Below are positions 17,201 through 31,692 of a DNA stretch of 64,000 nt, piece by piece. Each line of letters opens with the position of its first letter. Within the stretch, counting starts at the first letter, position 1. This stretch comes from Aurantiochytrium sp. KH105. Taxonomy: Eukaryota > Sar > Bigyra > Thraustochytrida > Thraustochytriidae. The stretch lies in assembly GCA_003116975.1 (NCBI GenBank), contig BGKB01000214.1, forward strand, positions 1 to 64,000. The letters are read 5' to 3'. The notes beneath the pieces were generated by a model that did not search any database, was not told where the DNA came from, and saw only the letters and a list, made by a program, of their open reading frames with translations. The position numbers were made by a program, and so were the translations under genes.

Positions 17201-20200
17201 ACCAACCCGCGCCAAGCTGTTCGAGGTACTCGTTGCACAATGCACGTCAATCGAGCTGAATGAGAGCTGAAAGGTGGTAAAGAGGTCAGCACGGACATTT
17301 GTCACATGGAGATCCAGACGAAGCGTCACCCACGAGCTGGCAGGCGGTGTCGCGACCGCACGCTTTGCGTCATGCGCTCTCGTGAGATGCCCGCTGCGAC
17401 TATGCGCGTCAGTCGCGTGGGACAGTGCCCTTGACCGCGTTCGCGGACCCGAGCGCGAGCGACGGTCTCCGGCTGATGTTCTCTTCCCCTTTGCTATCGG
17501 AGACCGAACGCTCGTTCGAGCTCCGCCAGAAGCCTCGGGGCTCCCGAATGTACCCTTGAGGCGCTCAGACTGGACCCAAAGATCCCCATAGAAAAAGGCG
17601 ACAGTCCGCGAGACGGCTTCTTTTGGGCCCACAGCTGCCACCCAGGGAGGCGCCACCTTGCTGTTAAGCTCACGAGCGAGCACTGGGCCGAGCACGTCGC
17701 ATATACGTTCAAATACCCCGGTCGCCTCCTGAGGGCGGAGCACAAAGTCGTCTGCGCCATAGACTTCGCTTTCCACACCAAGTGCATGCTCCACGGCCTG
17801 CGTTAGCCCTTGCTGCATGTTGCCCATGGCGCTAACAACATCCCCGGCTCCGCCAAATTTGTCAATGACTGCATCCAATGTATCCTCGGCGGCAGCGTCC
17901 GCGTCAATGGCAGCTCCAACGGAGTGCGATTCAATCGAAGCACGGTCACCAGGACGCCATGCGGCGTCTTTCGGCAACATGTCTTGAGAGTCGTCCATGT
18001 TTTGCATCGTCTTTTGCAACACGTCGATGAGGTCAAGCAAAAGCGTCACGTGCGACTCTGTCACAAGAAGATTGAGATCTCCCAGAACCAAACCCACTTC
18101 GACTGGCTGCACGCCATAAGGGGCTCCCCGAAATGACACGCGCAAAATGTTCAAGTACATTTCAAGCAAACTGACGCTGCTTGGTCCATCCATCGTCTGT
18201 TCAGCAGCTTCGTCAATTGGGTCGGCGCCTTCGCCGCCTGTCACCGCTCCGACGGACGACGAGGACCGGCGTCTCGCCCAGCTTACCTGTCGCCGCAAGG
18301 TGTCCGAGGCACCATCATCATTCTCGTCGTCGTCATCGTCATCTGCTTGGGAGAATGCATCTTGAAATTGAGTGTCTTCATCAGCGTCAGAGGATGCCGA
18401 AGCGGAACCTTCATTGATACGGCCGCCCAGGTCGGACCGTACGGATTGCTGAGCGTCAAAGAATCTGACATCGCCCTCAACTTCGCTCTCAGAATCTCGT
18501 TCAGCGATCGGCCGCGGCAAGAGGGACGGGCGTTGAAGCGCGTCCTTCATCGACATTGGCGTCTTGTATTGTAACAACATCGTTGCGTCCTGGTCTTGGG
18601 GATCTATTGGCGCTGACGTCGAGTGTTCACCATCCGTTGTCGAGGCCAACGCGTTACCGCGACAGACAACGACTGCGCGAATGCGGTCCACACGCAGAAA
18701 GATACTGTCAAGAACCTTTTTGTGAGGTCGGAGATAGTCGAGAGCCGTCGCCGCTTCTTCGGGAAGCTCATTGCGAGGGTAAATGCCGATGGGTCCCACG
18801 ACGACCATTGCGCGGAGTAACGACTTTGATTCAACCATGGCAGCATCGGGCAGAATCGCACGCAAAATGCCAATCTGCACGGCGACCTCGTAGCGCACCC
18901 ATGACAATGAACTCAGATCGCCAAAGTCCGGGGGAGGTTGCGTCTCGATGGGCACCTCGTGGCCCTGAAAAGGAGCAATGCGCGCACTCAGCGAGCTCGA
19001 AAATTCACCGAGTTTGGCCAGCACAGCATCTTGCATGCACACTTCAATGTCGCTGATAGACCCTCGAAAGGTGACCATCGTGATGGGAACTTCGGACTTC
19101 GCCGCGGGAGAAGGTCTCTTCTGAGTCGACTCCATATCGGACGCTCCGTCGAAGTTTCCGACATTAACGCCGTCGTCAACGTCGTCGCCATTGTCATCCT
19201 CGCGCAGGGAAGTCACCTCCAAGGACCGATCTGGGAGGACGAGCGAGAGTTCCACATTTAGAAAGGGGCGCTCCCGACAGAGAGCGAGCGCATTGGCAAG
19301 ACGTTGAAAACGTAGATTGTACTCCAGCAATGGAGGTAGGTCCTCGGTAGCGACTGCACTCCAGTGTGCAGCCGTTGCCTGGGCTGACGCCATGCTTGCA
19401 AGACGCTCCCCGCTACGAACAAGTTCCTGCCACGTCCGTGTAGACTGCGCAGTCCACTTTTCAAAGTCGCCGAGCTCTTCGTACAGGCTAATAAAGTCTC
19501 GTGGCAAAGCCTCGTTCTCGGCTTCTTTGCGCTCTCCTGAGCCCTCAAAGTGGAGCCTCCTACGGTTCCACAAGAGCGTCGCTGTAGCAAAGCAGGAAAA
19601 TACCCATCGTGGATCCTCAAGAAGAGAAGCGACAGAGGTCTCGTGCGTACGGCCAAAGGGGTTCCAGTCAATATCGTGTTCATAAGCAGGAGGTATTGCG
19701 CCATCAAGGGCGTGATGCTCCCGCATGCCATCCTGATCAAACTCGCACGCGCTACTCATGAGATGAATGGGGGCCCATACCTCGCTTGAGACGGACGACG
19801 GCAGCGCACTGATTACATCCGCGTGCAAAATTCCAAGCCCGAGGTCCAAGTCTACAATGTGCGCGAGGCGTTCGAGCGGACCCACTGCAGCGCCTGCAGA
19901 CTTGGCATCGAGAGAGCATCCAACGCCAATGAGACGTGTCACGCACAAGGACTGCTCGCCAGGTCCCGCAAATAGAGTGACATCGAGAGCGTCAAGAGCC
20001 ACAATGGCCCGAACAAAGTTTACGACACTCCCTCGTACGTAATTTGCGGCGACGCGAGCCGCATTGACGGATCCTTTGAAGCGAACTCGCAGAGGCCGCC
20101 TCCCACGACGAAGCTTGGAAAGGGTTTCTTCCACTGAGAGGTCCGTGACGTCGTAGTTCCCGATAGCCGTGATGACCATGCCCGGCTCAATGAGACGGGT

Positions 20201-21871
20201 GCGCGCTGCGGGAGACCCGGCGATGCACGAAGCAACAACCACAGAGTCATTTTGAAAGTTATGGTCAAGCACCAGTCCGAGGCTGCCCTCAGAGAACGTG
20301 ATCTCGATCTCGTCGGGGTCCAATCCTGGTTTGGCAAGACGACCGTAAGAGGTTTCCGCCCCGGCAAGTTCCGACTCGAGTGTTGTCGCGAGTTCCTTTT
20401 GCCATCCTGTGCCAGAAACGACTGCCTCCTGCGCTCTCGAAGCGCGGCTTCGCGGCGAGTGTTGCATTGCATGAACAGGCTCACCTTCGCTCAACGTCGA
20501 GTCTTGGGAATGGAAGGGCTGCAATTTGAAGTTCCGCGTTTCCTGAGCATCTCTACCAGCCATCTCGATCGCGTGCTTAAGGACGTCCAGAGGAAGATGA
20601 GCTTCGAGGTCAACGAGGTCCTGGTCCTTCAAAAGTGCCTCGAAGCGCTGCTTTCGCTCTGCCGCGTCTGTGATCCGGGTCAGGATGCGTGCTCTCCTGT
20701 TGCACAGGGCATGGTATTCCTCTTCTGGTTCAGAGGGATGGGTTTTCCTCCGCTCCGCCACCCATGCTTCGCTCTTGCGCCGCTCGCGTGCCTCGATACG
20801 CTCAAGCCACTGGCCATGACGTGAGAGGTGCGAAAGAATCTGCATGAGGAAAACGAGCTCGTCCTCTCCAATAGCAAGCACGATGGGTGTCAGCTTGATT
20901 TGTGCGTCCGCGCGATGGGGCTCGCCAGCCCCCACGGAAAACGCCGTGTTTAGCTTGACGCGCATCTCCAAATTCAGAGGACTTAGCATCGGCCGCACAC
21001 CACCAGATCGCGCGCGGTGTCGTAGGTAGTGTTCATAGTAGGCCTTGACAGAGAGCTCCTTGGCTCCCGCAGGTCGGGCTTCGTCGCTCACGCGCCGCAT
21101 CGCCCGATCCCTGTGGGCAAAAGTGGCTTCCAGCGCAACGATTCTCAGCACCTTGAAGACAATGTAATCGCAATCGTCATCAAAGTGTCGATCCCAGTTC
21201 TCGTCCGTTGTGAAAACTTGTGCGTTTGCAATTGTGAGGTCTAATGCCGACACGTCTTGCAAACGAAGATCCCAGTGCTGCACCAAGCCACCATGGTATA
21301 GACCTTCTGAAACGGCGTCCGAGGCGTTGAGCGAGAGATCCTGATCGTGGATACAAGGCGTCTCGACGCGAACACTGATATTCTCCAGAGAGACCTCGAG
21401 GTTATCAACAATTCTCGTAATTGTACGATTCAACATGCCTTCGCTTGAAAAGTATAATCCCGGGTTCTCAGAGAGTCTAGTCACTTCTGACTCGGGGTGC
21501 ATTGTCTCAAGAAGAGCCACAATAGCGGCTTTGACAGCAGCCTTGAGATCGTCTCGAGCCGTCGTCTCATTCCATGCGGCTTCAAGATGCATATTTGCCA
21601 CAACGAGAACGTTTTTGATGCTCACCTTGACGGGCCTCGATCCAAGGTGCGAAAAGGGAATATCTACCAGAACGTGGCCCACGTAAACTCTTTCGAGTCG
21701 GAGCGGAATGCCCTCTCTGAAGATCATGTCGTTGAGCGTGCTGGACTTGACCTCGAGATGCTCGAGATCAAGGGCATGTTTCCCAAACAAGCTGATCCCG
21801 ACATCGAATTCGCCTTCCACGTACTCGTTCAGAAACCTGTTGACAAGGTTTTTCACCAGCCCCGACAGCAT
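5219..21871 (-). CDS. VPS13: Giant VPS13-family bridge-like lipid transfer protein with extra domains
   Basis: Single-exon gene of about 5550 residues, expected to carry bulk lipids between organelles at membrane contact sites. I chose the ATG at 21871 because it begins a classic chorein N-terminal domain (MLSGLVKNLVNRFLNEYVEG). The frame stays open upstream to 22387, but that part is GC-rich repeat sequence without family similarity. Segments in order: chorein domain (about 1-115); PDZ-like domain (about 520-600, SLGLVLD and GMVITAIG); acidic run (about 1180); Arg-Ser-rich stretch (about 1860); VAB/SHR-BD adaptor repeats (about 2630-4450, NNTGIEL and NRTPFPLEV); discoidin-like module (about 3130-3330); RanBP2-type zinc finger (about 3370-3395); PH-like segment (about 3500-3660); C2-like segment (about 4670-4790); and the C-terminal VPS13 region with the TPRLFTRSGEMILY motif near 5405. 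The length exceeds yeast Vps13 (about 3100) because of disordered inserts and added domains. Confidence 0.92.
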   Translation of the reverse strand: MLSGLVKNLVNRFLNEYVEGEFDVGISLFGKHALDLEHLEVKSSTLNDMIFREGIPLRLERVYVGHVLVDIPFSHLGSRPVKVSIKNVLVVANMHLEAAWNETTARDDLKAAVKAAIVALLETMHPESEVTRLSENPGLYFSSEGMLNRTITRIVDNLEVSLENISVRVETPCIHDQDLSLNASDAVSEGLYHGGLVQHWDLRLQDVSALDLTIANAQVFTTDENWDRHFDDDCDYIVFKVLRIVALEATFAHRDRAMRRVSDEARPAGAKELSVKAYYEHYLRHRARSGGVRPMLSPLNLEMRVKLNTAFSVGAGEPHRADAQIKLTPIVLAIGEDELVFLMQILSHLSRHGQWLERIEARERRKSEAWVAERRKTHPSEPEEEYHALCNRRARILTRITDAAERKQRFEALLKDQDLVDLEAHLPLDVLKHAIEMAGRDAQETRNFKLQPFHSQDSTLSEGEPVHAMQHSPRSRASRAQEAVVSGTGWQKELATTLESELAGAETSYGRLAKPGLDPDEIEITFSEGSLGLVLDHNFQNDSVVVASCIAGSPAARTRLIEPGMVITAIGNYDVTDLSVEETLSKLRRGRRPLRVRFKGSVNAARVAANYVRGSVVNFVRAIVALDALDVTLFAGPGEQSLCVTRLIGVGCSLDAKSAGAAVGPLERLAHIVDLDLGLGILHADVISALPSSVSSEVWAPIHLMSSACEFDQDGMREHHALDGAIPPAYEHDIDWNPFGRTHETSVASLLEDPRWVFSCFATATLLWNRRRLHFEGSGERKEAENEALPRDFISLYEELGDFEKWTAQSTRTWQELVRSGERLASMASAQATAAHWSAVATEDLPPLLEYNLRFQRLANALALCRERPFLNVELSLVLPDRSLEVTSLREDDNGDDVDDGVNVGNFDGASDMESTQKRPSPAAKSEVPITMVTFRGSISDIEVCMQDAVLAKLGEFSSSLSARIAPFQGHEVPIETQPPPDFGDLSSLSWVRYEVAVQIGILRAILPDAAMVESKSLLRAMVVVGPIGIYPRNELPEEAATALDYLRPHKKVLDSIFLRVDRIRAVVVCRGNALASTTDGEHSTSAPIDPQDQDATMLLQYKTPMSMKDALQRPSLLPRPIAERDSESEVEGDVRFFDAQQSVRSDLGGRINEGSASASSDADEDTQFQDAFSQADDDDDDENDDGASDTLRRQVSWARRRSSSSVGAVTGGEGADPIDEAAEQTMDGPSSVSLLEMYLNILRVSFRGAPYGVQPVEVGLVLGDLNLLVTESHVTLLLDLIDVLQKTMQNMDDSQDMLPKDAAWRPGDRASIESHSVGAAIDADAAAEDTLDAVIDKFGGAGDVVSAMGNMQQGLTQAVEHALGVESEVYGADDFVLRPQEATGVFERICDVLGPVLARELNSKVAPPWVAAVGPKEAVSRTVAFFYGDLWVQSERLKGTFGSPEASGGARTSVRSPIAKGKRTSAGDRRSRSGPRTRSRALSHATDAHSRSGHLTRAHDAKRAVATPPASSWVTLRLDLHVTNVRADLFTTFQLSFSSIDVHCATSTSNSLARVGVHVGTVTMVNFRSRDGENPMVIQPTVEETDAARSERMYCLSFYIVLISDTLQQALRQSDAENGLLPAADASDSDTETSSSEGDSEDEMQTEGLGDASDEGGEDYLRGRRTSSDSTHEGVGAMSTSGSSDDDGGEDDDKSLRALRKRLEEASDGPAAVEKAIARIHRQTFKSPKKEVESLQGALDMAQRARARVRRQEEQVIRSREASGTRFRSTLAQRGCGALLWEAQTSRKSLSDTGRSLGRVLRQRQRTLARTADDESLEARRAHDNRRSLQALHRSQLGLSRSRTHHLDSDRHESRRHARSRSRSRSVGRGRQRSETVDASTLEILDDEAATTLYSCVKQIVKLVGPTTTLERETSIPAVSVTLVVRDLVVEISERLALTGLELLDTVQKAVAGSSPSEASVQSGQSGSMHQTEEERPGNPTVLSGVEFSTEMQGVIIRVKTSRDRPFGPAPGGKDDGQKRIKSTDSRRGSHVGSVTEGSSLMGDLTTLDVPSAMSGAELARQSFNDIFVDIGLNVALVYVAHQCVEECELKMSRTTISITYDRTTTLLRRRQQRRWSRQAVSPSVTVTHAVLKPWDASLEYVLRRDMNKPREITRLVSGSMGNLQLSLWTTDVSVLTQAGSELGEIAESVARAAEKVTGGAGAPEGDKEGENGCSQAEQHKQIEATNPDGGAIRVMIFKAQGVSVLGMAMDKGLVIADDPSYGRHLEACAQAAWFMERNAELFASVPVVVRWLDSLVVAVARNGAHFSTEKIDLLQGVDTSRDTTEQSPLGYSIRRQPSSPPRGMGQLYEGNSVLSPLIEDDKDIMASDTDDSENPSGAHYIGDSNLLEVSDRHAEHRAAVEARQTELFTREEMDILHDRIKLSVSGMGVELVQEVLRSETRVETFLPVLRFGAEKIELRGESFSQFSKDFVLATYVDMEAKFYNRRIGSWEFIMEPWTRTKASVLVSEADQNISVNLEALNRLNINVSEDLLALLLKLQSDLERASSSLSEDPVTRAVMDERNEATTVNDGKSVALSKGPSVTVSKQVSTVQRTLRSRRRRRIHRQRSRKGGRRSKKTVARREAQHWLINNTGIELVMHDLYQVGYDYRGIITVSYRDGWYLPTHERWNKRPLMRITLLPYRRRGTVGSLGNDGGDARAIPIGSSERHPEDDDFDDSASSALDSDTSDSRSDTSHVVRPYQDGNKYVLPYEGSRSAEVPHLLVEVKDATGAYYQTSVDLVPYILFPNQGSAEWFRLRSDGAKLDTPRGAELMLSIEFDLHEDLNADPKSALREVHGDRQAAIEPFRMASGAMIPMNFQALPKKHWYKNINRYEINKSISTKQYTKLRAVAVDFSRGLDFASPHKPLLMVFPVDEAGETMLTTRAVSDARVPGQREAIGVAKPPYEGLDRGGPVEEREASATSIVSLGNDIGLGGKDGLSLFGKKSRKETNGSDDHMPADASFSFNVFAVSAMRDQKRRVIFLESPFKLMNAVDHTLEVLICEKGTIAEQENRKDVYPSLEPMSLEHAECKSSGRHLARYGMDMNCLFDRRSSTKWVDGGHRLSEQSDEVAEDAEMLQAVNEEEGAGFALDSYVEWTFAQPVQICLYRLTPALDAVVRDAHATPFDSDKQVDASRLGLDPVQWRVYGKLLQQESSASDSIPDDNEDAGRNKEKAASTSAAANAATGRAVTGQAGDLEPVETPWVLLDERSGIAFDRERRPREYFLPQVGSFHCYRIELSSGCTFSAMERQGAAKARPYEEEIDLARASCGPKDSVPIALSCIELFQERLLARRMRVLVASGLVSPGDESNMLDFDDEEALEESRHRSSAEWTCPTCEIFNVGGDATCKLCGTTRPEVRDVVETDVFAQDIEDPDTVTSDQAEQARKRRSRAIEDMARRSAQRHMSTTAGSRTSSKTSGNDAALEDDNAFAKAIELDKMSGKVAVASDAGSVRGGARFRTRRVHLTLESLSVEKPRNTKELGRNLLYRQIGRRVANQSEQDDARSNSSDVDSLDSDTPGFVAGSSSPLRRRSTSLDYETLELNMAAETVVQVVKSQRLTMRLITPQRGSKAGVNRPHSTRGGLSLDGGVLLRFDHRETFRRWFDAIESILKRLRRRHQGKVIEVEEFTGMRRLVRPGEEFSIPLNFIYSTRKWSLFIRPDTNVGQVQVHWAQVLDHISAQILRFEDSVDNVIPDLACEPFKYSERVLRESKLEMTPFSFSAAFTKRFLKGHHSGLDDSPSTEGTSKLIPRVEITIRAWVRVINALPYSVEVRFKSTEEAGQHTIAPGQEINMCKIRRDEEAQFRIPALDTEWTDRQRLESLSYFQDSARKTFGHSSQRQQQLNSGTPVQFWKRGSNRQYLKNVAAEAKIDRSRDPTGPLYVVLYAPFWFYNYSDLNLLAIPRDSFLSPGDESKDVFLEPNFLPDNSEQTKGVHVLPHLRNMDGKAKVSIAVALSQTELQGVGKQGPTAAQNPNAWKPEMEAGGETARRVQAVRNNWLTDFENEHQDYFVSNWSRPVKVQSTSENIQWRSFRFVLNAITILRREIGIEIVTGGVNAFTRSVQVIFRSKYLLVNRVPDTILHFTQSVPRVESQGAFAQGLQEYNVKQIQRTKMSQFLRRQKSTSNGGEPANGRDLEGDGRNYMPAPEGGDDLAREEEGAGSDDADQETKDGESRHEESLDNEMNGRAGEAAEDNASSKEEEEEEENEDEDEVTTALRVHGVHAGKTIKDLYLGPNPSHCQPFHFGGFQKEFVGYESGFRIGIVDGKLEDMTHESAVISAAKESEYSLLLRSKSGSSRERLGAHRVRVAIRKERGTTFIIFSRDLSMSSHPRPFYVIRNRTPFPLEVWQDRMARVHFNTIVYPGEDFAHAWDNPNLSQDIRARILWPLFREDQLADVNLGDLAFESSDELARKVQDLKEATSKHGHRHLTHQGGHKRRRQQEALRRQLQSTLERYESHEISAEGPATAYKGLSLEGLFPIDAVKQFDDLCVVEPRLFKTPLFVSVEGFIEESSKTLAFRLDSARAIEAATTSGSLGLATLGFFASPPGSEGTLSDDEDKVGDGEDSNNELADAGGKEAEDDEDEQDLAGGGSVTVAEAKRAPCRPRGEEGQLPASRASKRASAVSKAGAKLSSGHRKYNVFLRLVLKADAVFQTRSSAEHRGKYKVVVRVGGKSREFSGSVVALPGSPRKTTRDLEGIAEDLHFSLDTKPTQVFILVYVTNSMDKRELLRAGTIDLVKQLWAGKHAESWLEVNSPEWQKCKEDLAEMEREERRRVQALLDDGFTKSLRDRAMRLSNESEAQAANEDDGASNDQASESRKYAQSSTNLSVANSMSILEREKSLMSTLSRESRADETASQPSYRSGASSPFGTRSLPFLPMRTRQPTFTEEEEERASAEPVPLFELRDPDSESSQTARHLVPSSISNLAKRKGGEKQEESDETESGASTSRSQAWMQIRCEAVEPSQENQGKEGKATQAVLELGEAATLKVRVFLSSVGLSLVHASQRLEICYSIMQRVHVFSELSPGNLQLSVRLGHLQVDNHDPNAQYDVMVVPEKRPPVNPKSRYPYPREDCLSLEMIVRQSEEPYLELETFELDLSRLVVNFEESFLGNVLSMWAKVLESTNQDGASGLDARDIEHPPASTAHFILQVQALADFMYVYWFKIGTIQMIFQCHLDGGKKIVAEDQVSMAIKQYVPTMWIQDFRLRISDFSRSNEFTSVDEFYRVMTMFFVQEAISRNLQTALTQTNFSLNPFPACKTIAIGAYEMVHQPYMQRHRGCGGVCSGCQHGLAAFIASLSAGMTDLVHAYTDFVVMGLENVANANQYDLVARPLTLTTAAFRNVTSAISVSSHKIANELLNPVDRIEQIRTPRLFTRSGEMILYGPGNRPIQQDLPTQRAAAAVFHFVHDTWRLRKKLRQEAKARGQILQEFDPREYMNNRLRHERGNLFDRWMASIRDTLVSLQYEFAQARNEEGDPESEENDRLLGGVGVGVSGDGGGGGTTSGGGGTRDRLNS

Positions 21872-22820
21872 CCTCCTTGGCCCCCTTCCCCTCCTCGCCG
21901 AGCGCTGGTGAGAGAGACTGCAAGCCAAAAGTCGTCTGCCCCGTATCGCAAGTCGTATCCCGCCGCCGCCCCGTTCTGCGTCCGCACGGGCCAGCCCGCG
22001 AGAGGCTGCTGCCGCCGAGCTCGAGCAGGCAGGCCCGCAGGCCGTCCCGCCGAGGCGCCCCGCGCGACGCGCTCCGGAGCGGGGTCCGGCGAGGCCGCCG
22101 CGCCGCGCCGAGGGTCCGGGCCTCGAGGCTTCGAGGTTTGCCACGGGCAAAAGGTCGCAAAAGGTCGCAAAAGGTCGCAAAAGGTCGCAAAAGGCCGCAA
22201 AAAGCAGAGCGCAAAAAGCGGCAAAAAGCGACAAAAGGTCGCAAAAAGCAGAGCAGCGCAAAGCCGCTTCGCGCACTCGAGGCCGAGGCGCCAGACCCCG
22301 AACCCTCTGCCGCGCGACGCGGACGAAGACGGGCCAGGGCGGCCGGCGGAAAGCGCGCGCAGAGCTAGTCCGCGAGCGGGCGGACACGGACGGGCGGCCG
22401 GCCTGCCTGCCTGGCTGGCTCGGTGTGATCCATCGACCGATCGATCACGTGCCCAAACCTGCAGAACGACCGACCGTGCGTGCGCGAGAGCGGCGCAGGG
22501 AAGGACGCGGGTTGAAGCAAAGCCCTCGGCGTGCTCGTTTGGGCTTTTGGCGGAGAAAGGCCTGCGAGAAGGGAATGCTCGGATCCGGTCGTCGAGACAG
22601 CGTCGCAGTTCTTGTGCGAGGTTGAGCAGAAGGACGAAAGAGGAGCGAAACGGAGCTCGGGGTGTTCTCGTCGTTGTCCGGAAAAGGTGGTGGCGGGCTC
22701 GCGTAATTTTTCTCTTCGTAAACCCACGTGCGCGAGGGTGCTTTTTCTCTGAGCTGAACGATCCCCAAGTGTCACTACTGCTTGCGCTGCCGATTTGTCC
22801 AGCTACACCTCGACAAAGGG
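21872..22820. other. Divergent promoter region between VPS13 and the SET gene
   Basis: GC-rich spacer of about 950 bp. Long open frames on both strands here have compositional rather than protein-like sequence. It contains a decanucleotide tandem repeat, listed separately. Confidence 0.6.
22147..22256. repeat. Tandem decanucleotide repeat GCAAAAGGTC
   Basis: Four perfect head-to-tail copies of GCAAAAGGTC are followed by degenerate copies (GCAAAAGGCC, GCAAAAAGCG, GCGACAAAAGGTC). They lie in the divergent promoter about 275-385 bp upstream of the VPS13 start. Confidence 0.85.
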
Positions 22821-24602
22821 ATGATGGAGCAAGCGACTGCAAATTCGGCGACAAGGGCTGTGATGAAGGTGAAGCTCGATGCCACAGATCCGAGCACAGA
22901 CGCCATTTCGGGAGGCACACAGCCGCCTCGAAGACATGGATGGGGAAAGATCTGCCTTGTGGCATTACGCGCATGCAAGGCTGGCGAAGTCTTGCTGCTG
23001 GATCACGAACCGCTGGCCTATGCTGTAACGCATGTTGGCGAGGGTCGCTGCAAATGGTGCGGATCAAGCGAGCACAGCTCAGCGCGCTGCTCAGAGCTGC
23101 GTTGCGCATACCCTTCGCCCGTTAGTGAGCACTCCGATTGTCTGCTGAGTGATATCAAAGACTCTCTGTCGAGTTCTACGACATCTTGTAACTTACCGGA
23201 GCTCCTCCTGAATACGATAGCCTCCCTCCTCGACAAAAACACAGAAAATGCGATGCGCCGTCAAAATGCTATCCAGAGCCTCGTGGCGGCCATGGGCGAC
23301 CCGTTGCCTCGTCGCGCAGAGGCACAGAAACTTCTGGAGCACGGACTCATTCGTCGCGCTCTCCCCTCGAGTCTGTGTAACGAAGACGAGCTTGCTGGGC
23401 TCTTGCATGTGCTCGCGCAATTTGAGATCCAAGAGCGCGTTCCACCGGGGGGTGAATTCGAGTCACAGGGAAAGCGATTCGGGGTTTTTGGACTCAGCAA
23501 CTTTTGTCGCCATAGTTGCTCACCGAATGCCGTGCAAAGCATGCAGGGAAAATCCCTCGCGCTCGTCGCGCTGGAGCCAATTGCTGCGGGCCAGGCCATT
23601 TGCCTCGATTTTTGTGGAAATGCAGGACTTCGCCCTGCTCGTGATCGCGCACACGCGCTTCGCGATGCATTTGGGATTGATTGTCGCTGCAGGCTATGCA
23701 CCACGCAGCCAGATCGCTGCCGTGCCTTTGTGTGTCCTGCCGAAACAGGTCGATTCCGCGTTGACCTTGCCGGAGTCGAGGACAGCGACTCGGAGGCAGC
23801 AGGGCAAAGAGTTCTTGACGCTGTAAAGGAGGGATTGGAGGGATTTACGGCTGCCTCTTCGCCATTATACCACGCAGTTTGTCCCCTTGGCTCAGGATCG
23901 AGCCCTGATCGCTGGCGCTGCATTGCATGTAAGTGGACTCTCTCCGAGAAGGAATGGGCGCGCTGTATTCGGCAAGAGGAAACGCTGCGGTCTCGCGCTC
24001 CGCTCACGCTCAGTGACGCCGATGACTTGTTACGCAACTGTTTCATTCGCAAGGAACACTTCCTCATTGTTGAGACTTACTTTCGTATTGCTAAAGCCCT
24101 GGCCATGGAACTCGCTGGCGCTCAGGCCAGTTTATCGAATGCTCCGTCTGCTCAGCCTTATCGGGAAGCAGCAGGTCATGGCGAGCAACTGCAAAGGGGC
24201 TCGACCACTTGGCAGAGACCTGAACTACCTGTGAGCACCGCAATGTCTGGAAATTCAGCATCACGAGGCCTACAATCTCAGCCAGAGCCAACACCAACAC
24301 CAACACTTTTGAGAGAGAGCGGCCATACAACAAGTGCTGCGTCCCAAATTGAACTCGTTGCGGAGCTGTGGCTTGCCGTTATCGAGGGGATCGATGTGTC
24401 GGCACCACGCGCGATCGACGCTCGCGTTGACCTTCGCGTGCAGCTTGCTCAGGTGCTTGAGGGCCTTAAGTTTATGAAATCGGCAATGCTGAACGAGCTG
24501 TACAAGGTGGCAGCACAACTTTCAAGAGAGGCGTACGGACCACGAGAAACCTCCACATTCACTCGGTGGCTTGAAGAACGTTGTCGAATGCAAAAAAAAT
24601 GA
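22821..24602 (+). CDS. SMYD-like SET-domain protein (putative protein lysine methyltransferase)
   Basis: A 593-residue protein starting at the ATG at 22821. It opens with a split-SET beginning (residues about 34-65, GWGKICLVALRACKAGEVLL), the usual 'charged loop, then KAGE' of SMYD proteins. The SET core has the cofactor/substrate motif NFCRHSCSPNAV near residue 225 and AGQAICLDFCGNA further on, followed by the post-SET zinc motif CRCRLC near 287. The MYND zinc finger normally lying between the SET halves is reduced: CKWCGSSEHSSARC is present but later MYND Cys/His ligands are not evident. The C-terminal third is helical with a low-complexity Gln/Thr/Pro stretch. It presumably methylates lysines using S-adenosylmethionine; the substrate is unknown. 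Its stop lies only 7 bp from that of the convergent channel gene. Confidence 0.82.
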   Translation: MMEQATANSATRAVMKVKLDATDPSTDAISGGTQPPRRHGWGKICLVALRACKAGEVLLLDHEPLAYAVTHVGEGRCKWCGSSEHSSARCSELRCAYPSPVSEHSDCLLSDIKDSLSSSTTSCNLPELLLNTIASLLDKNTENAMRRQNAIQSLVAAMGDPLPRRAEAQKLLEHGLIRRALPSSLCNEDELAGLLHVLAQFEIQERVPPGGEFESQGKRFGVFGLSNFCRHSCSPNAVQSMQGKSLALVALEPIAAGQAICLDFCGNAGLRPARDRAHALRDAFGIDCRCRLCTTQPDRCRAFVCPAETGRFRVDLAGVEDSDSEAAGQRVLDAVKEGLEGFTAASSPLYHAVCPLGSGSSPDRWRCIACKWTLSEKEWARCIRQEETLRSRAPLTLSDADDLLRNCFIRKEHFLIVETYFRIAKALAMELAGAQASLSNAPSAQPYREAAGHGEQLQRGSTTWQRPELPVSTAMSGNSASRGLQSQPEPTPTPTLLRESGHTTSAASQIELVAELWLAVIEGIDVSAPRAIDARVDLRVQLAQVLEGLKFMKSAMLNELYKVAAQLSREAYGPRETSTFTRWLEERCRMQKK

Positions 24603-24609
24603 ACAGACA

Positions 24610-27600
24610 TTAGATTTCAGCTGGACTAAAGGGTTGGAAGCCTTCTCGGCTTTCGATTCGTGCGACTTGTTTCAAAGCTTGGTCTCGGACCTGCTCGCGC
24701 ACCTCCACAGAAAGACGCTGCAGGATGTCATCGAGCTTAGCAAACGCCACAACATACACCTCGCATATCGTGAGTGCAACTGGTGTGGCTGTCATGGCTT
24801 GATCCACGAGAATTTCAATCCCCACCAGGTCATTCGTTGGGATTTCCTTGCATAGGCACTGACCTAGGATCATCATGTCGTCGTGCATGCCATCAACATG
24901 GCCAATTTCCGGAGGAATTGGACTGAGTCCTGAAAGGTGTTCGCCGTCAAGTTCGTGTCCACTCTGCGGCGCCCAAGCGGGGTGTGCTGCAAGACCCACG
25001 GGCGGCGAGCCCTGACGCGCAACGTCCCTTTCGGTATTCTGGCGTACCAGCATGCGGGCATTAGCGCGAAGAATGTCAGGAAGTTCACATGAAGACAGCT
25101 GTAGAGCAACATATTGCATTTTGCCCGAGACGTGCAAGGCAAGTTCGATTGCCACCGAACCTTCGCAACCGAGCGTGTCGCCTGTCACCAATGTGCGATG
25201 TCTCATGCCAGCCGCAATCTCCAAAATAACGGCATTGGGAAGTCCGAGGAAGCACGGCGCCTGACCTAGCTTGGCACCGTGCATGTAGCCTCGGATCTCG
25301 CGCTGTATGGCGTCGGGTAAGCTCTCCATAAGATCGGGCTCCGAGATGCCAAAGCGCGCGAGCAAGGTTTGCGAGTCAAGAAACTCATTCACGGTATGCA
25401 TAATCGCAGGTGGAGTATTCTTGTCACGAAGATTGCGCCGCACAGCCTCGCGTATTGTCTTTTGCCGTGCAGCAGCAGAGTCGAGATTCGAGATGACAGT
25501 CGTCACATTTGCAACAATGTCCACGTACATGTATAAGCTGACAAGAAGGACGGCGACCGCAAAGAGAGTTTCTAACATGGTCTTGGGCACGATATCGCCG
25601 TACCCAATTGTCGTTAGCAGGGTGACGGACCAGTAGAGTGAACGTAGATAAGCATGACCAGATGTGATCTCGACAAGGCTTTGATCAAGTTGACCTTCTT
25701 CCAAATGCGCCCAGGATGTCGGCAACCCTTCGCAGTACGCGAGAAAGTACCATGTACACGCCACCCAGTGCGCCACAAGAAGCAAACTGAACACCTTGAA
25801 GATGATGCGCATCACGGCAGCGCTCATCTTGACCTTGATGGCATGGAGGTGAAAGTCAACAAGAGGATAAAAGTATCCGCTCACGCGGCGAAGTCGCGCC
25901 AGAGTTAAAAGCCGACCCATACTCCAAACCTGGAAAAGGTTTACGCTGCTCTCCTGGGGGAAAGAGTTTGTGAACGTAACCATGACAATGATAATGTCAC
26001 AGGGAATCAGTGCGACAAGATCTGTCATGAACCAGGTGGCTCGGTAGTGAGGCCAGAGCTCTTCAGCCTCGCTGACAATCGAGCCTTCCTTAAAAAAAGC
26101 AAAGCGGCGCGCGTGCAAGTACATGTCCAAGGCGCACATGCTGTTGACCAGAACTGTTTCTGTCACAGCCCATGCCAGCAAAGCGCCGGACATTTCGTAC
26201 TGCTTTGCGGATGCGAGTATCCCCACGCGAAAGGGCACGGTGAAGGCTACGTAAGCTGTCATCGCAAGCACAGCGTACTCCCAGGCAACACGCCAGGGCA
26301 CGTGAGGTTGTACAGGTTGCCTCGTGCGGTTCTTGTGCAGACCTGAGATATCAGTCGTCATCATCTTTGTCACCTTGCGGTTTTTCAGGTTGTTGGCCAG
26401 TTTCAACGTCGCAGACGTGGCCTTGAGCAGCTCGACGTTTTCCAAAATCGTCGTCTCAGCGCCAGGAAACTTGTCGAGGGCCTCGAGAAATTCGTCCTGT
26501 CGCAGCACAAGCACAGTGCAAAACGTCTGCGCCACGAGAGACGTATTCATGACCAGCTGCTCAAAAAATTCATCAAAGCCAAAGACACCTTTACCCGAGT
26601 ACTTGTCGACTGTCGTTACGCCGTCCTCGGCAAGAACGGAAACGTCGCCCGCGCTGAGAACGTACATTGCGGAAGAAGGCTGGCCGGCACGGAAGATGAA
26701 GTCTCCTGGGGCACAGGTCGTGGGTGTCAAGCGCGAGATGAGCGAATCGACGAGGACTGGTTGTACACCCTGGAAGAGCGACACCTTGGCAAGCTGGCCG
26801 TCGTCCATGCTCCTGAGGAGCTCCGTTTGCAGGTTACGAGGTATGAAGCGAACAACCTCCTCGAGACTGCCCCCACGCTGAGAACGCCACATTTGGTCAG
26901 CATACGACAAAATTTTGTCGCGAAGGTATTGAGGGAGCTCACGGGCCGCCACGAGACGCTGAAGATCCTCGCGCCAACGCTTGTGTGTCGTTGCGGTCTG
27001 ATCGAGGTTCGCAACGATACTCGCCAAAATAGCGATGAGCAAAGCGTACATGGCTGCGCCCAGAATCATAACGAGAATCACAAAAACAGTTTCTTTGTCG
27101 GAGCGCGCAACCACGTCGCCGAATCCAACAGTGTTCAGGGTCACGAGAACCCAATACAAACCCCGCAGGTACAGAGCGCTCGGTTCAAATCGAACACACG
27201 ATGTGCTGGAATTCGCAGACATGTCTCCAAAGCACGTTCCGGAAAGAGTGCAGTCGCCCACAGCCCAGCTGTTGGCGGGGTCAACGTTCGCAAAGCGAAC
27301 CCAAATGCATGCAAGCCAGTGCGCAAAGATCATGAGCACCAGCAAAACCCGAAGAAGCTCTGCGTGCGTCTGCTTGACCTGCAACCTGTCCATGACCTGG
27401 CGGAGCCGATCAAGATGGACTCGAAGCTCAAAGACGCGTACGAGTTTGAAGAGACGAAGGGCCAGCGCCATGTGCAAGTTGCCCGAGCTGCCTGCGGCAG
27501 CAAGGTATATCCAGTCTACGGGGAAGGAGGCGACTGCATCCACAACCATGGCCTTGCTCTGGACGTATCTCGCGCACAGGCGTCTGGCGTCGACAATTAG

Positions 27601-30600
27601 GGCGCCTTTCTCGCGTTCTGCGTAAAAGAATCCTTGCAAGCCCATTTGCAGGATCGAAAAGGCGTCCCCAATCGCGTTTAGAATGAGAATGGCCTTGATC
27701 CAGCCGTCTGTGCTCAGCGTGCACGCGCTGTTTGCGACAAGCCCGAGTCCGAGTGCAATGAGTAGGTGAATTGAAAGAGCCACGCACGTTGAAAGCGTGT
27801 CGAGTGCCCGGCGCAGCGGGGTGAGCGGTAGAATGACGTATTTACGCTTGTTGATGTGAGCAAAAAGGCTTGCGTGAAAGGTGACGTTGGCTTCGCTGCA
27901 GCGTCTGTGTTGCGTTCCCACGGCCATCGGGGGTGCTTCTTGGCCCTTTTTGCTTCGATGGCGCGGCCCTGGTGATCCTGTGGTGGTATTTGTCATGTTT
28001 GTCACGTTTGAGCCCGACGACTGCGTACTCAGACCACGTGCCACATCGCTTCCCCTTCTGCGAAGTAGATTGCAGCCAGACTGAATAAGTAAGGCGTCTT
28101 CCGGAAAAAGCTCCAATGCGCGAGAAAAGTCAGCAGCTGAGATGCAGAGAAACATCGATTGCTCCAGGACCTGCACAGAGGACGTGTATGGGTTATCGCA
28201 GACGATGTCCTCGAATCCAAAGTACGACCCCGGTCCTCCGAAACCCTTGAGACCTTTCTCAGTTGCCTGGACCAGGCCATCGAGAAGAAAGTAGGCATGC
28301 GTGGCCTCCTGACCAGTGGTGATAAGCGGGGAATGCGCGATGCCCAGCTCAACGCGCAAGTGCATGCAGACTTCGGAAAGAAAAGCTGAGCTCGTTCCCT
28401 TGAAGAGTTTGTTTCCAGGCGTCGTCTTTTGCAGTGAATGGCCCATTGGCATCACGCGGGCATGACCTCGACCGCCCGAACCTTCATCGCAGCGAGCGTT
28501 GCCACGGAGAAGAGGCCCGTACAGCTCGTACGCAACCTTTTTCGCAAGCCAAGGCGGCATCTCGGCAAAGAAGTCCTGAGGTTCAAAGTCTTGCTCCTCC
28601 ACGTGAGACAGATAGGCTCGTATTCCTGAAACAAGGTTTTCCTGTGTCGCAAGGATTTTGCAGGCCTTGGTACGCTCGACGAGAACATCCTTGGAAGGCT
28701 TATCTTTGAGAGCGCGCTTGCAAATTCTGCCAGACTCCGACGGTTCTCCTTGCATGACGGAGATATTGGCCACAATCACAGGGTAAAGACCAAGTGAAGC
28801 AAAGAAAATGGCAACAACTGCAAAGAGACTCTCTGCCGTCGTAATCGCGGCGACGTCTCCATAGCCAACGGTGGTTAGTGTCATGATGGCCCAGTAGATG
28901 CTCTGCTCCATGTGGGTATCCTCGCGCAAAGAAGACGCCCACGCTCCTATTCCCAGCTCCTTGAGGTCGTCGTTTGCGAATAGCGCCCACAACGATGCTA
29001 GCCATATGCTTGAGATAGCACTAAAGATGGCAAGCTCTGCAGAACTTCGCCGGGATGCGTCGATGCGAATACCACGTCGTTCCAAAGCCGCGGAACATTT
29101 GCGAGAGTACGTGGGAATGCGCGTGATACACAAACATCTGATAATGCGCAGCGTGGCCCACAGTGTCCAGTCTGGCTCCGTGGATATGAGCAGCAGCACA
29201 ACGTCGATAGGTGCAAGAGAAAGAAGATCAAAAACGGAGCGTCGAAAGAACTTGCGCTTGGCTTCAGCAGAGAGCAACTCTCGAAGCTCGTAGCGCCGAT
29301 AGATGCGTGAGACGAGGTCGGTGGCACAGAATATGTCAAGCGCGTATGCCATGACAATTGTCGCTCGCTGACGCGCCAATTCTTCCTTCCAGGAATGCAG
29401 GCCAATGGCGAGCGGCACCATGACCAAGTAGCCTGCAGCTACGACGAGGCGCATGCAGGCCCACACAAGGACGGAAATGGAGCGAGACGCTGCAGCGTTG
29501 GCTGCTTGGCCAAAGCTTCCCAGCTTTTGCACGAGGGCCTCGGTCACAATGGCGTCGACGGCAACCGAAGCCGACCGGCTCCGATGCTTTTGCACGGGAA
29601 ACTCTCGTCTGGCACTTCCTGAGCTCGCAGCGCTGTTGGGACTTCGAAGCCTCGATGTCACCTGGGCGCGTCCGATCTTAAATGACGAGAGAGTGGCTTC
29701 TGCCCCTGGAAGCTGATACGATGTGGTATCAATACGAAGCGCCTCACCTTCCTTGATGACGCCTCCTGTATTGTGATTTGCCTTTTTGGCTTCGACTTCC
29801 ATACGAGCCCGAATTTTGTCCACGTCTTCTGGCTGGAGTCGCTCTTTCGACCTGAGCCTGTACGGTCTCATCCAGTCTCCTGACTCAAGCGACTGCTCAC
29901 ATTTTTCTCGAATTTCTTCAAGAGAGAGAAAGCACTGGGCGACGGACTGAAACGTCGTCATGTCGATGCAAAAGATTTCGGAGAGACCACTGCTCTTGAC
30001 AACAGCAGACACCAAATAGGGCTTTTGTGCAATGGCCTCAGCATGCCCTAGCAGAACGCCCGTGTTTGCCTCGAGTGAAATACGCTCTGCGTGGGTCACG
30101 TCCTCATACACCATGGAAACGGACCCCTTGCAGATGCCATAGAAGGCGAGAGCGGTCTGCCCACTGTGGAAAATGTGCTCTTCGGCCACAAATGTGATAA
30201 TGTTGGCGTCCTGCAGAAGCGCCCGGACCATGTTGAGGTCGGCATTTTCGAATGCAGGGTCGTTAATGATAATGTCGCCGTGGAGCATGAAAAGCACTGA
30301 GGCGCGCAGCTTTCGAGGAAGCTGCTCAAGCAAGAGGTCCTCTTCGAATCCTTGCGACTGTTGCCAAATGAGCTCGAAATAACGCAAAACCTTGACGCCC
30401 GACTGGTCTGCAATTCCGTAAGCTTGGCAGAATCTGCTCAGCTGGTGGACCTTGCGATTGTACGCAAGTCGAGCCGCGTCCTTGTTACTCACAAACGAGG
30501 TTACACTCGAAAGGAGAAGTACATACAAAGCAATGCCGAGAAGCTCTGCGAAAACGGCAAAGACCGTCTCTGAGGGGCGTATCGGCACAATATCGCCATA

Positions 30601-31692
30601 ACCGACCGTGGAAATCGTTGCCACCGCCCAGTACAGGCTTCGAACATACATGCAGGCTACGCAATCACGTACCTGACAGCTAGCGATGTCGGCGTTTGTC
30701 CAGGAACTCGAAAGGGGCGCGTTACCATAATAATGATCCAGCCCGATGTGTTCGCATGAATGCAGCGTTGTAGTGTCAGCGAGGTGATGCCAGCCGCAAG
30801 CTAGCACATGCGCGACAGCAAAGCCGGCGCCAATAAGATAGATACAACGTCGACTTGCTCTTGCATCAGCAGGACCGAGACTGTCTAACACGGAGTAGTA
30901 CTCTGTAGCCCTGGCCAGCTGAAGCATCTTGAGAAGTCGCATCCTTGCCCAGACCTGAAATGCAAGACGACTATCGACCGCAAAGACAATCCAGCAGGCA
31001 ATATCAAAGGGAACGACACCGATAATACGAAGTGCGCGTCGGAAGAAGCTCAAACAAGTCATTTGCCGGCGCGCATTGAATAAATCGATCATTGCTGGAA
31101 GGTCGAGGACGAGTAGCTCCAAGAGCATCCATCCTGCAAGAAACCTTGGCGCAAGGTTAATATTGGCCTGAGGAGTGATGAAAGCAATTTTTGCAGGGAC
31201 GAGGATAACATGTGCGAGAGTCACCATGGACATGCAAAGCGTCATAAAGTGGTAGTCTTCAAGCCATTTGGGTTTTGCGCGGGGAATCCTTGGGCCATAG
31301 AGTGCGACATAGGAGACATTGAGATTGCTGCCGGACCGCGTGCGTGATAATTTGCTTACATCGATGCGGTTAATCGTTCTTCGAATCGCGTCAGGCACCG
31401 AGAGCGCGACAGCGCGTCCATGGCCGCTGTCTGCGGAAACTGATACTCGACCGGAAGCATGATCGTCTGCACTATTGCGCGACGCTGACAATCCTTGTCG
31501 AGACACGCTCTCCTTGGGCGTGGCGTCCGGACCTCCCTGCGATGGGGCTACTTGCGCCTCGGGCATGGCCCTTCGTGCGCTGGCGCGCAAATCGCAACTG
31601 CCTTTGCGCGCGTCCTTGTGGCGCGCGCCACGGCAGGTCGCTGCAGATGCAAAAGAATGTTGTATGCGTTGTGCATTTGCGGGCAACGACAT
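24610..31692 (-). CDS. Four-repeat K+ channel with cyclic-nucleotide-binding-like domains (CNGK-like)
   Basis: One uninterrupted 2360-residue chain containing four consecutive voltage-gated/CNG-type channel repeats. Each has S1-S6, a pore loop, a C-linker and a cNBD-fold region. The selectivity filters are TVGYGD (362-367), TVGYGD (941-946), TVGFGD (1521-1526) and TIGYGD (2028-2033), all K+-selective. S4-like helices with spaced Arg/Lys precede each pore (for example RMRLLKMLQLARA and LRLFKLVRVFELR). Four repeats in one polypeptide would fold as a pseudotetramer. This is the layout of CNGK channels, the cGMP-gated K+ channels of sea urchin and fish sperm. The phosphate-binding cassettes are poorly conserved: repeats 2 and 3 keep a GxxFGF-type turn but none shows the canonical Arg that binds the cyclic phosphate, and repeat 4's cNBD has a long insert. 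Plasma or ciliary membrane location is inference. Confidence 0.9.
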   Translation of the reverse strand: MSLPANAQRIQHSFASAATCRGARHKDARKGSCDLRASARRAMPEAQVAPSQGGPDATPKESVSRQGLSASRNSADDHASGRVSVSADSGHGRAVALSVPDAIRRTINRIDVSKLSRTRSGSNLNVSYVALYGPRIPRAKPKWLEDYHFMTLCMSMVTLAHVILVPAKIAFITPQANINLAPRFLAGWMLLELLVLDLPAMIDLFNARRQMTCLSFFRRALRIIGVVPFDIACWIVFAVDSRLAFQVWARMRLLKMLQLARATEYYSVLDSLGPADARASRRCIYLIGAGFAVAHVLACGWHHLADTTTLHSCEHIGLDHYYGNAPLSSSWTNADIASCQVRDCVACMYVRSLYWAVATISTVGYGDIVPIRPSETVFAVFAELLGIALYVLLLSSVTSFVSNKDAARLAYNRKVHQLSRFCQAYGIADQSGVKVLRYFELIWQQSQGFEEDLLLEQLPRKLRASVLFMLHGDIIINDPAFENADLNMVRALLQDANIITFVAEEHIFHSGQTALAFYGICKGSVSMVYEDVTHAERISLEANTGVLLGHAEAIAQKPYLVSAVVKSSGLSEIFCIDMTTFQSVAQCFLSLEEIREKCEQSLESGDWMRPYRLRSKERLQPEDVDKIRARMEVEAKKANHNTGGVIKEGEALRIDTTSYQLPGAEATLSSFKIGRAQVTSRLRSPNSAASSGSARREFPVQKHRSRSASVAVDAIVTEALVQKLGSFGQAANAAASRSISVLVWACMRLVVAAGYLVMVPLAIGLHSWKEELARQRATIVMAYALDIFCATDLVSRIYRRYELRELLSAEAKRKFFRRSVFDLLSLAPIDVVLLLISTEPDWTLWATLRIIRCLCITRIPTYSRKCSAALERRGIRIDASRRSSAELAIFSAISSIWLASLWALFANDDLKELGIGAWASSLREDTHMEQSIYWAIMTLTTVGYGDVAAITTAESLFAVVAIFFASLGLYPVIVANISVMQGEPSESGRICKRALKDKPSKDVLVERTKACKILATQENLVSGIRAYLSHVEEQDFEPQDFFAEMPPWLAKKVAYELYGPLLRGNARCDEGSGGRGHARVMPMGHSLQKTTPGNKLFKGTSSAFLSEVCMHLRVELGIAHSPLITTGQEATHAYFLLDGLVQATEKGLKGFGGPGSYFGFEDIVCDNPYTSSVQVLEQSMFLCISAADFSRALELFPEDALLIQSGCNLLRRRGSDVARGLSTQSSGSNVTNMTNTTTGSPGPRHRSKKGQEAPPMAVGTQHRRCSEANVTFHASLFAHINKRKYVILPLTPLRRALDTLSTCVALSIHLLIALGLGLVANSACTLSTDGWIKAILILNAIGDAFSILQMGLQGFFYAEREKGALIVDARRLCARYVQSKAMVVDAVASFPVDWIYLAAAGSSGNLHMALALRLFKLVRVFELRVHLDRLRQVMDRLQVKQTHAELLRVLLVLMIFAHWLACIWVRFANVDPANSWAVGDCTLSGTCFGDMSANSSTSCVRFEPSALYLRGLYWVLVTLNTVGFGDVVARSDKETVFVILVMILGAAMYALLIAILASIVANLDQTATTHKRWREDLQRLVAARELPQYLRDKILSYADQMWRSQRGGSLEEVVRFIPRNLQTELLRSMDDGQLAKVSLFQGVQPVLVDSLISRLTPTTCAPGDFIFRAGQPSSAMYVLSAGDVSVLAEDGVTTVDKYSGKGVFGFDEFFEQLVMNTSLVAQTFCTVLVLRQDEFLEALDKFPGAETTILENVELLKATSATLKLANNLKNRKVTKMMTTDISGLHKNRTRQPVQPHVPWRVAWEYAVLAMTAYVAFTVPFRVGILASAKQYEMSGALLAWAVTETVLVNSMCALDMYLHARRFAFFKEGSIVSEAEELWPHYRATWFMTDLVALIPCDIIIVMVTFTNSFPQESSVNLFQVWSMGRLLTLARLRRVSGYFYPLVDFHLHAIKVKMSAAVMRIIFKVFSLLLVAHWVACTWYFLAYCEGLPTSWAHLEEGQLDQSLVEITSGHAYLRSLYWSVTLLTTIGYGDIVPKTMLETLFAVAVLLVSLYMYVDIVANVTTVISNLDSAAARQKTIREAVRRNLRDKNTPPAIMHTVNEFLDSQTLLARFGISEPDLMESLPDAIQREIRGYMHGAKLGQAPCFLGLPNAVILEIAAGMRHRTLVTGDTLGCEGSVAIELALHVSGKMQYVALQLSSCELPDILRANARMLVRQNTERDVARQGSPPVGLAAHPAWAPQSGHELDGEHLSGLSPIPPEIGHVDGMHDDMMILGQCLCKEIPTNDLVGIEILVDQAMTATPVALTICEVYVVAFAKLDDILQRLSVEVREQVRDQALKQVARIESREGFQPFSPAEI

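Follow-up and report, generated by a model that had tools for sequence, protein, structure and literature searches.

Gene content and repeat structure of the channel locus

The window, by which we mean the whole 64,000-nucleotide stretch of DNA that was analysed, carries on its minus strand a single uninterrupted frame of 2360 codons, running from ATG to stop. The encoded product, protein A, contains four successive repeats, each with S1-S6, a C-linker and a cyclic-nucleotide-binding domain (CNBD), the latter degenerate in repeat 4.

24610..31692, minus strand: gene A, predicted four-repeat CNBD-type K+ channel, 2360 aa (frame, Pfam, second haplotype copy L009)
29773..31290, minus strand: repeat 1 (aa 135-640), S1-S6, C-linker, CNBD (Pfam, local profile, hydropathy)
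28009..29490, minus strand: repeat 2 (aa 735-1228), S1-S6, C-linker, CNBD (Pfam, local profile, hydropathy)
26323..27855, minus strand: repeat 3 (aa 1280-1790), S1-S6, C-linker, CNBD (Pfam, local profile, hydropathy)
24613..26313, minus strand: repeat 4 (aa 1794-2360), S1-S6, C-linker, degenerate CNBD with insertion (Pfam, local profile, hydropathy)

Pfam matches cover four stretches with Ion_trans, four with Ion_trans_2 and three with cNMP_binding. CNBD 4 lies outside the three recognised by Pfam; it was picked up solely by a local CNBD profile that was built partly from CNBD 4 itself, and its aligned cassette region is longer by about 40 residues. At E values up to 0.1, Pfam gave no other domain in protein A, PAS included. 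A 6TM pore unit followed by a C-linker and CNBD is the layout of the CNBD-channel superfamily, and this order in protein A bears out the placement made by the sequence-only reading. Its claim of four S1-S6/pore repeats in one 2360-residue frame likewise agrees with the frame, the Pfam matches and the second haplotype described below.

A simple hydropathy scan gave peaks for S1, S2, S3, S5 and S6 in all four repeats, for the pore helix in repeats 1-3 and for S4 in repeat 3 only. Seven extra peaks fall outside the expected segments (one in the linker between repeats 1 and 2, six in cytoplasmic parts), so the scan alone is no proof of topology. Pairwise identity among the repeats is about 18-28%, varying with the alignment, which indicates that the duplication is not recent. 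The linkers, with borders that we set ourselves, are about 109, 51 and 25 residues long.

Downstream, a SET-domain gene (22821-24602, plus strand) converges on the channel gene (window 24602-24610). The two ends lie 7 nt apart, so the SET-domain and channel transcripts probably overlap.

A second haplotype carries the same frame

The host assembly (76 Mb in 367 contigs) appears to contain two haplotypes. A second copy of gene A (L009, contig C59) has an equal 2360-aa frame, in register with the first. The two proteins are identical at 2306 of 2360 residues, and the 7083 nt coding sequences are 2.6% apart with 0 indels. Codon differences comprise 125 synonymous and 54 non-synonymous changes (dS 0.079, dN 0.0105, dN/dS 0.13). 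Among the four repeats, dN/dS is lowest in repeat 3 (0.07); for the N-terminus and linkers pooled it is 0.19. Gap openings number 8 in 1070 columns of the upstream flank, 1 in 1310 columns of the downstream flank, which is mostly the neighbouring gene, and 0 in the 7083 of the coding sequence. All repeats of A are constrained, as are the linkers taken together.

The absence of indels and the low dN/dS indicate one long coding frame under selection, and the earlier claim of one intact gene is upheld. An assembly join of separate channel genes is rejected, since both haplotypes share the frame with no indel. The broader idea that channel genes were fused by assembly error or that the frame represents several transcripts is extremely improbable given two haplotype contigs 2.6% apart that share the frame, low dN/dS extending over the pooled linkers, and three other four-repeat frames in this genome, each present in two haplotypes.

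Selectivity filters and voltage sensors

Every repeat of A has a K+-type filter with GYG or GFG, and none has a filter of the Ca2+ or Na+ type.

30592..30609, minus strand: selectivity filter 1, TVGYGD (aa 362-367)
28855..28872, minus strand: selectivity filter 2, TVGYGD (aa 941-946)
27115..27132, minus strand: selectivity filter 3, TVGFGD (aa 1521-1526)
25594..25611, minus strand: selectivity filter 4, TIGYGD (aa 2028-2033)
30910..30948, minus strand: S4 charged core of repeat 1, located in the alignment by eye
29119..29151, minus strand: S4 charged core of repeat 2, placed by eye
27421..27459, minus strand: S4 charged core of repeat 3, placed by eye
25885..25917, minus strand: S4 charged core of repeat 4, placed by eye

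All four filters are as the sequence-only reading had given them. It should be noted that a filter motif of this kind is no proof of K+ selectivity, HCN being the example given in an excerpt of PMC7576140. The S4 stretches of repeats 1-4, taken to slightly past S4, contain 3, 5, 4 and 3 Arg or Lys residues in register (every third residue), against 6, 8 and 8 in three comparators from the same genome that were picked by hand. With so few in-register charges, A may have only weak voltage dependence.

The ligand cassette has no canonical arginine in any repeat

In the CNBD family the cassette Arg contacts the cyclic phosphate, and the roles of the cassette Glu and Arg are well established. The corresponding positions in protein A are occupied by other residues.

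29998..30060, minus strand: CNBD 1, phosphate-cassette region (Glu position His, Arg position Tyr)
28168..28230, minus strand: CNBD 2, phosphate-cassette region (Glu position Phe, Arg position Tyr)
26530..26592, minus strand: CNBD 3, phosphate-cassette region (Glu position Phe, Arg position Met)
24772..24831, minus strand: CNBD 4, phosphate-cassette region (Glu position ambiguous, Arg position Met)

At the Glu column of CNBD 4 the aligned Glu sits inside the insertion, and direct reading gives Ile. In an alignment of 35 repeats, the cassette Arg is found in 0 of 4 repeats of A (Y, Y, M, M), in all nine bacterial rows and in 5 of the 7 same-genome single-repeat rows with a complete CNBD; of the roughly 15 single-match loci, 8 were taken into the alignment, and one of these is truncated. 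Gating by cyclic nucleotides in its canonical, CNGK-like form, as proposed beforehand, is therefore not borne out. The description of A as "CNGK-like" stands for the four repeats, the K+ filters and the single chain, and fails for the cassette Arg, which is absent from all four CNBDs. We infer that A is without the usual means of sensing cyclic nucleotides. The genome has 37 matches to the nucleotide cyclase family PF00211 (both haplotypes and weak matches counted), so the organism itself very probably has cyclic nucleotides.

Three further four-repeat channels in the same genome

Besides A, the genome has three frames with four CNBD-type repeats (B, C and D) and one with two (E), which brings the four-repeat channels of this protist to at least four.

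Protein B, four repeats: contigs C104/C113, 2565/2564 aa
Protein C, four repeats: contigs C33/C110, 2597/2583 aa
Protein D, four repeats: contigs C49/C90, 2878/2864 aa
Protein E, two repeats: contigs C64/C40, 1723/1713 aa

Two cut copies of D (L014 and L015) were replaced by L029 and L030, and L031 and L032 were left out of the analysis. Single-match CNBD-channel loci number at least about 15. The genome also has separate frames with several Ion_trans matches, some of 1792-1816 aa and some of 2170-2280 aa; no K+ filter motif is present in the pieces read from the 1792-1816 aa frames. Between haplotypes, dN/dS is 0.06 for B, 0.17 for C and 0.09 for D, indicating purifying selection.

The filters of these proteins differ. 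D has TVGYGD in all four repeats; C has TVGYGG, TTGFGD, AVGFGD and TIGFGN; B has TVGLGD, TVGYGD, a broken VVVIGD in repeat 3, and SVGYGD. In the second repeat of C (C2) the pore and CNBD are visible with no clear S1-S3, and the last CNBDs of C and of D are cut or not alignable. The cassette Arg is present in three of the four repeats of B, in neither repeat of E, and in 0 of 3 repeats with an alignable site in C and likewise in D. Since it is also gone from two single-repeat channels and from E, its loss is not peculiar to A. B (L010, contig C104) has canonical cassettes in repeats 2-4 together with the broken filter in repeat 3. It is apparently the mirror image of A, with ligand sites retained and one filter broken. 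In the tree the two repeats of E (L021, contig C64), which are 35% identical, are most closely related to one another, marking E as a separate, younger tandem fusion.

Repeat phylogeny and topology tests

A maximum-likelihood tree was inferred from 35 repeat rows and 443 columns under LG+F+R3, with no animal sequences included. Nine bacterial rows were used, from at least 80 loci, 11 of which had long matches (L101 and L106 were dropped). Repeat borders of B-E were set by us, and C2, C4, D2 and D4 are poorly aligned. The repeats are near saturation, at about 20% identity.

The tree pairs C2 with D2 (89.1/85), C3 with D3 (97.7/94) and C4 with D4 (73.1/92), and leaves C1 and D1 unpaired. E1 and E2 are joined (97.4/100). 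A4 falls with C4 and D4 (71.7/77), A3 with D1 (87.9/63), and A1, A2, A4, C1, C2, C4, D2 and D4 are united (94/98). When repeats of two proteins were matched by position, the true order ranked first of 24 permutations for C and D by two distance measures. For the five other protein pairs the true order ranked only 4 to 18 of 24; in the three pairs that include A it came 6th to 14th, which amounts to no signal.

Topology tests were run four times, one of the re-tests with two models; constraint trees were inferred under LG+F+R3 and only re-scored under C20. In all four runs the top tree was the one with C and D orthologous by position (AU p 0.60-0.86), and the two proteins are consistent with descent from one four-repeat ancestor. 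Two histories were rejected each time, one in which each of A, B, C and D was concatenated entirely on its own (AU p <= 0.0042) and one in which all four proteins are orthologous repeat for repeat (AU p <= 0.0097). A history with the repeats of A orthologous by position to those of C and D was not rejected (AU p 0.067-0.096), and A may thus descend from the four-repeat ancestor of C and D. A single clade of A1-A4 (AU p 0.27-0.34) and a single clade of all sixteen A-D repeats (AU p 0.26-0.56) were also not rejected.

Pairing of repeat 1 with 3 and of 2 with 4 gave a mixed outcome. With A-D pooled, AU rejects it (p 0.010-0.025), whereas SH, the more conservative test, does not (p-SH 0.11-0.14). 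It was borderline for A alone (AU p 0.0495, 0.060, 0.053 and 0.063) and was not rejected for C and D together (AU p 0.35 and 0.23). In A, pairing of 1 with 2 and of 3 with 4 fits better than 1 with 3 and 2 with 4, though not decisively (AU 0.36 and 0.43).

Comparison with known channels

Four-repeat chains are a textbook hallmark of Na+ and Ca2+ channels. Nav and Cav channels share with A the four 6TM repeats per chain; A differs from them in its K+ filters and CNBDs. KCNH (EAG/ERG) channels have a CNBD-like domain (CNBHD) that is without the cNMP cassette Arg and is not gated by cyclic nucleotides. In this they resemble A, whereas they have one repeat per chain instead of four, and no PAS domain was found in A. 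Bacterial CNBD K+ channels follow the same order of S1-S6, C-linker and CNBD as A; they have a single repeat and, in the rows used here, a canonical cassette. Among the solved-structure matches listed for the repeats of A, KCNH1 is the best for repeat 4 and SthK the best for repeat 3, SthK and bacterial CNBD K+ channels stand high over repeat 1, and no chain is named CNGK.

CNGK (tetraKCNG), known from animal sperm and choanoflagellates, is a single chain of four 6TM-CNBD repeats with a K+ filter in each (excerpts of PMC4749565 and PMC7576140). A has the single chain, the four 6TM repeats and the four filters as well, and a CNBD that Pfam recognises in three of the four repeats. The excerpted text of the latter, a 2020 survey, places CNGK in metazoans and choanoflagellates, and the host of A is probably not a holozoan. 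The same text gives the repeats of CNGK as pairing 1 with 3 and 2 with 4, a pattern that is borderline in A. CNGK is further described, in an excerpt of PMC6259924, as having near-identical repeats and equally short linkers, in contrast to the 18-28% identity and unequal linkers of A. Sea urchin CNGK operates through CNBD 3 and zebrafish CNGK is gated by pH (excerpt of PMC4749565), while A has no cassette Arg in any repeat. This residue is not a strict criterion, however, as zebrafish CNGK has largely regular CNBDs and is itself not gated by cyclic nucleotides, making the link between residue and gating a loose one.

Within SAR protists, concatenated CNBD channels are described in the excerpted survey from oomycetes and dinoflagellates (PMC7576140). 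Compared by description, these have two repeats, some with reduced CNBDs, as opposed to four in A. The same excerpt reports tandem channels as not identified in labyrinthulomycetes, phaeophytes or diatoms. In the literature covered, some of it as excerpts, four-repeat chains among K+ channels are described only for animal and choanoflagellate CNGK. For stramenopiles, the open-licence PMC literature, which was surveyed in part, yielded no report of a four-repeat CNBD channel, and the excerpted parts of PMC4820453, PMC6660944, PMC8835908 and PMC2572835 contained nothing about four-repeat K+ channels of protists. An excerpt of PMC3879662 calls three K+ channels of Ectocarpus male gametes similar to TetraKCNG, with the repeat number unstated, and these could reduce the novelty of A-D.

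Origin of the four-repeat channels

With a tree that holds no animal CNGK and repeats that are near saturation, we lean towards independent fusion. Concatenation in the stramenopile or labyrinthulomycete lineage, once or more and convergent with animal CNGK, has in our view about an even chance of being correct. C and D match position by position, the sister repeats of E suggest that tandem fusion recurs in this genome, a single clade of A1-A4 is compatible with the tests, and two-repeat CNBD channels are reported from oomycetes and dinoflagellates. Against it, C1 and D1 stand apart in the tree, four fully separate origins are rejected, and the tests allow A to be orthologous by position to C and D. 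We hold more tentatively, at slightly under even, a fuller version in which an independent stramenopile origin was followed by radiation to at least four channels, A giving up four ligand sites and keeping four K+ filters and B keeping three sites and losing one filter. If true, this radiation would be an example from nature of a K+ channel whose repeats specialised one by one.

It is unlikely, though not negligibly so, that A is a true CNGK orthologue, that is, an ancient eukaryotic four-repeat K+ channel that was retained in animals, choanoflagellates and this protist and widely lost, its CNBDs decaying later. Architecture and filters are alike, zebrafish CNGK shows that gating by cyclic nucleotides can be lost, and the tests leave room both for one clade of all sixteen repeats and, in C and D and by SH in the pooled set, for the CNGK-type pairing. 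Against this, AU rejects that pairing for the pooled repeats and is borderline for A alone, CNBD 3 of A is without cassette residues although CNBD 3 is the working one in sea urchin CNGK, and the excerpted 2020 survey has labyrinthulomycetes without tandem channels. With the cassette Arg absent from all four repeats and the pairing borderline, we do not file A as a member of CNGK. Four such channels in a distant protist make the choice between ancient origin and repeated concatenation directly testable.

Proposed working of protein A

We consider A probably to be a single-chain K+ channel with KCNH-like, structural CNBDs that is gated by voltage or another signal. From what is known of the family, the four linked 6TM repeats would fold around one pore as a pseudotetramer, with each repeat supplying one quarter of a canonical K+ filter. 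Judging from their residues, the four CNBDs would form an intracellular ring resembling the KCNH-type CNBHD, with no canonical binding of cAMP or cGMP. Opening may be set by the voltage sensors, with their few charges, or by some other signal such as pH, and the channel would mainly stabilise or hyperpolarise the membrane. Fusion into one chain may permit the repeats to diverge separately, as suggested by the four filters and no canonical cNMP site of A and the three sites and one broken filter of B. Such proteins offer ready-made natural constructs, the quarters of a K+ pore and the ligand sites having each evolved on their own.

That A is still gated by cyclic nucleotides, through a non-canonical pocket in at least one repeat, seems doubtful to us. 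Pfam does recognise a CNBD core in three repeats, paralogue B retains canonical cassettes in repeats 2-4 and cyclases are encoded in the genome; the cassette Arg is nevertheless missing from every repeat of A.

Other features of the window and genome

Elsewhere in the window, a 5722-aa single frame (5219-22387, minus strand) has matches to the VPS13 N-terminal domain, below the Pfam cut-off, and to VAB, and is possibly a bridge-like lipid transfer protein. A class C GPCR-like protein with 7tm_3 and ANF_receptor domains is encoded at 45472-48129 (minus strand), here in a protist. Between 52837 and 59654 there are eleven copies of tRNA-Gly(gcc) with equal Rfam score, on both strands and partly in threes spaced about 180 nt apart.

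In the rest of the genome, a PfaA-type PUFA-synthase match spans positions 6-1035 of a 2582-position profile and reaches 930 bits, short of the curated cut-off. Together with long open frames and the size of the genome, it points to a labyrinthulomycete as the probable host, in agreement with the probable stramenopile of the sequence-only reading. PUFA-synthase-like pieces are split over contigs C72/C155 and C290/C61, possibly broken at tandem acyl-carrier repeats. The labyrinthulomycete primer LABY-A gave no hit at 0 or 2 mismatches; the usual eukaryotic form of its site differs from it at two positions, so that stretch of the 18S is probably absent from the assembly. Outside this genome, a scan of the viral_contigs set gave at least 54 loci, mostly short pore matches. 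In the assembly itself, an 18S 5' end lies on contig C322.
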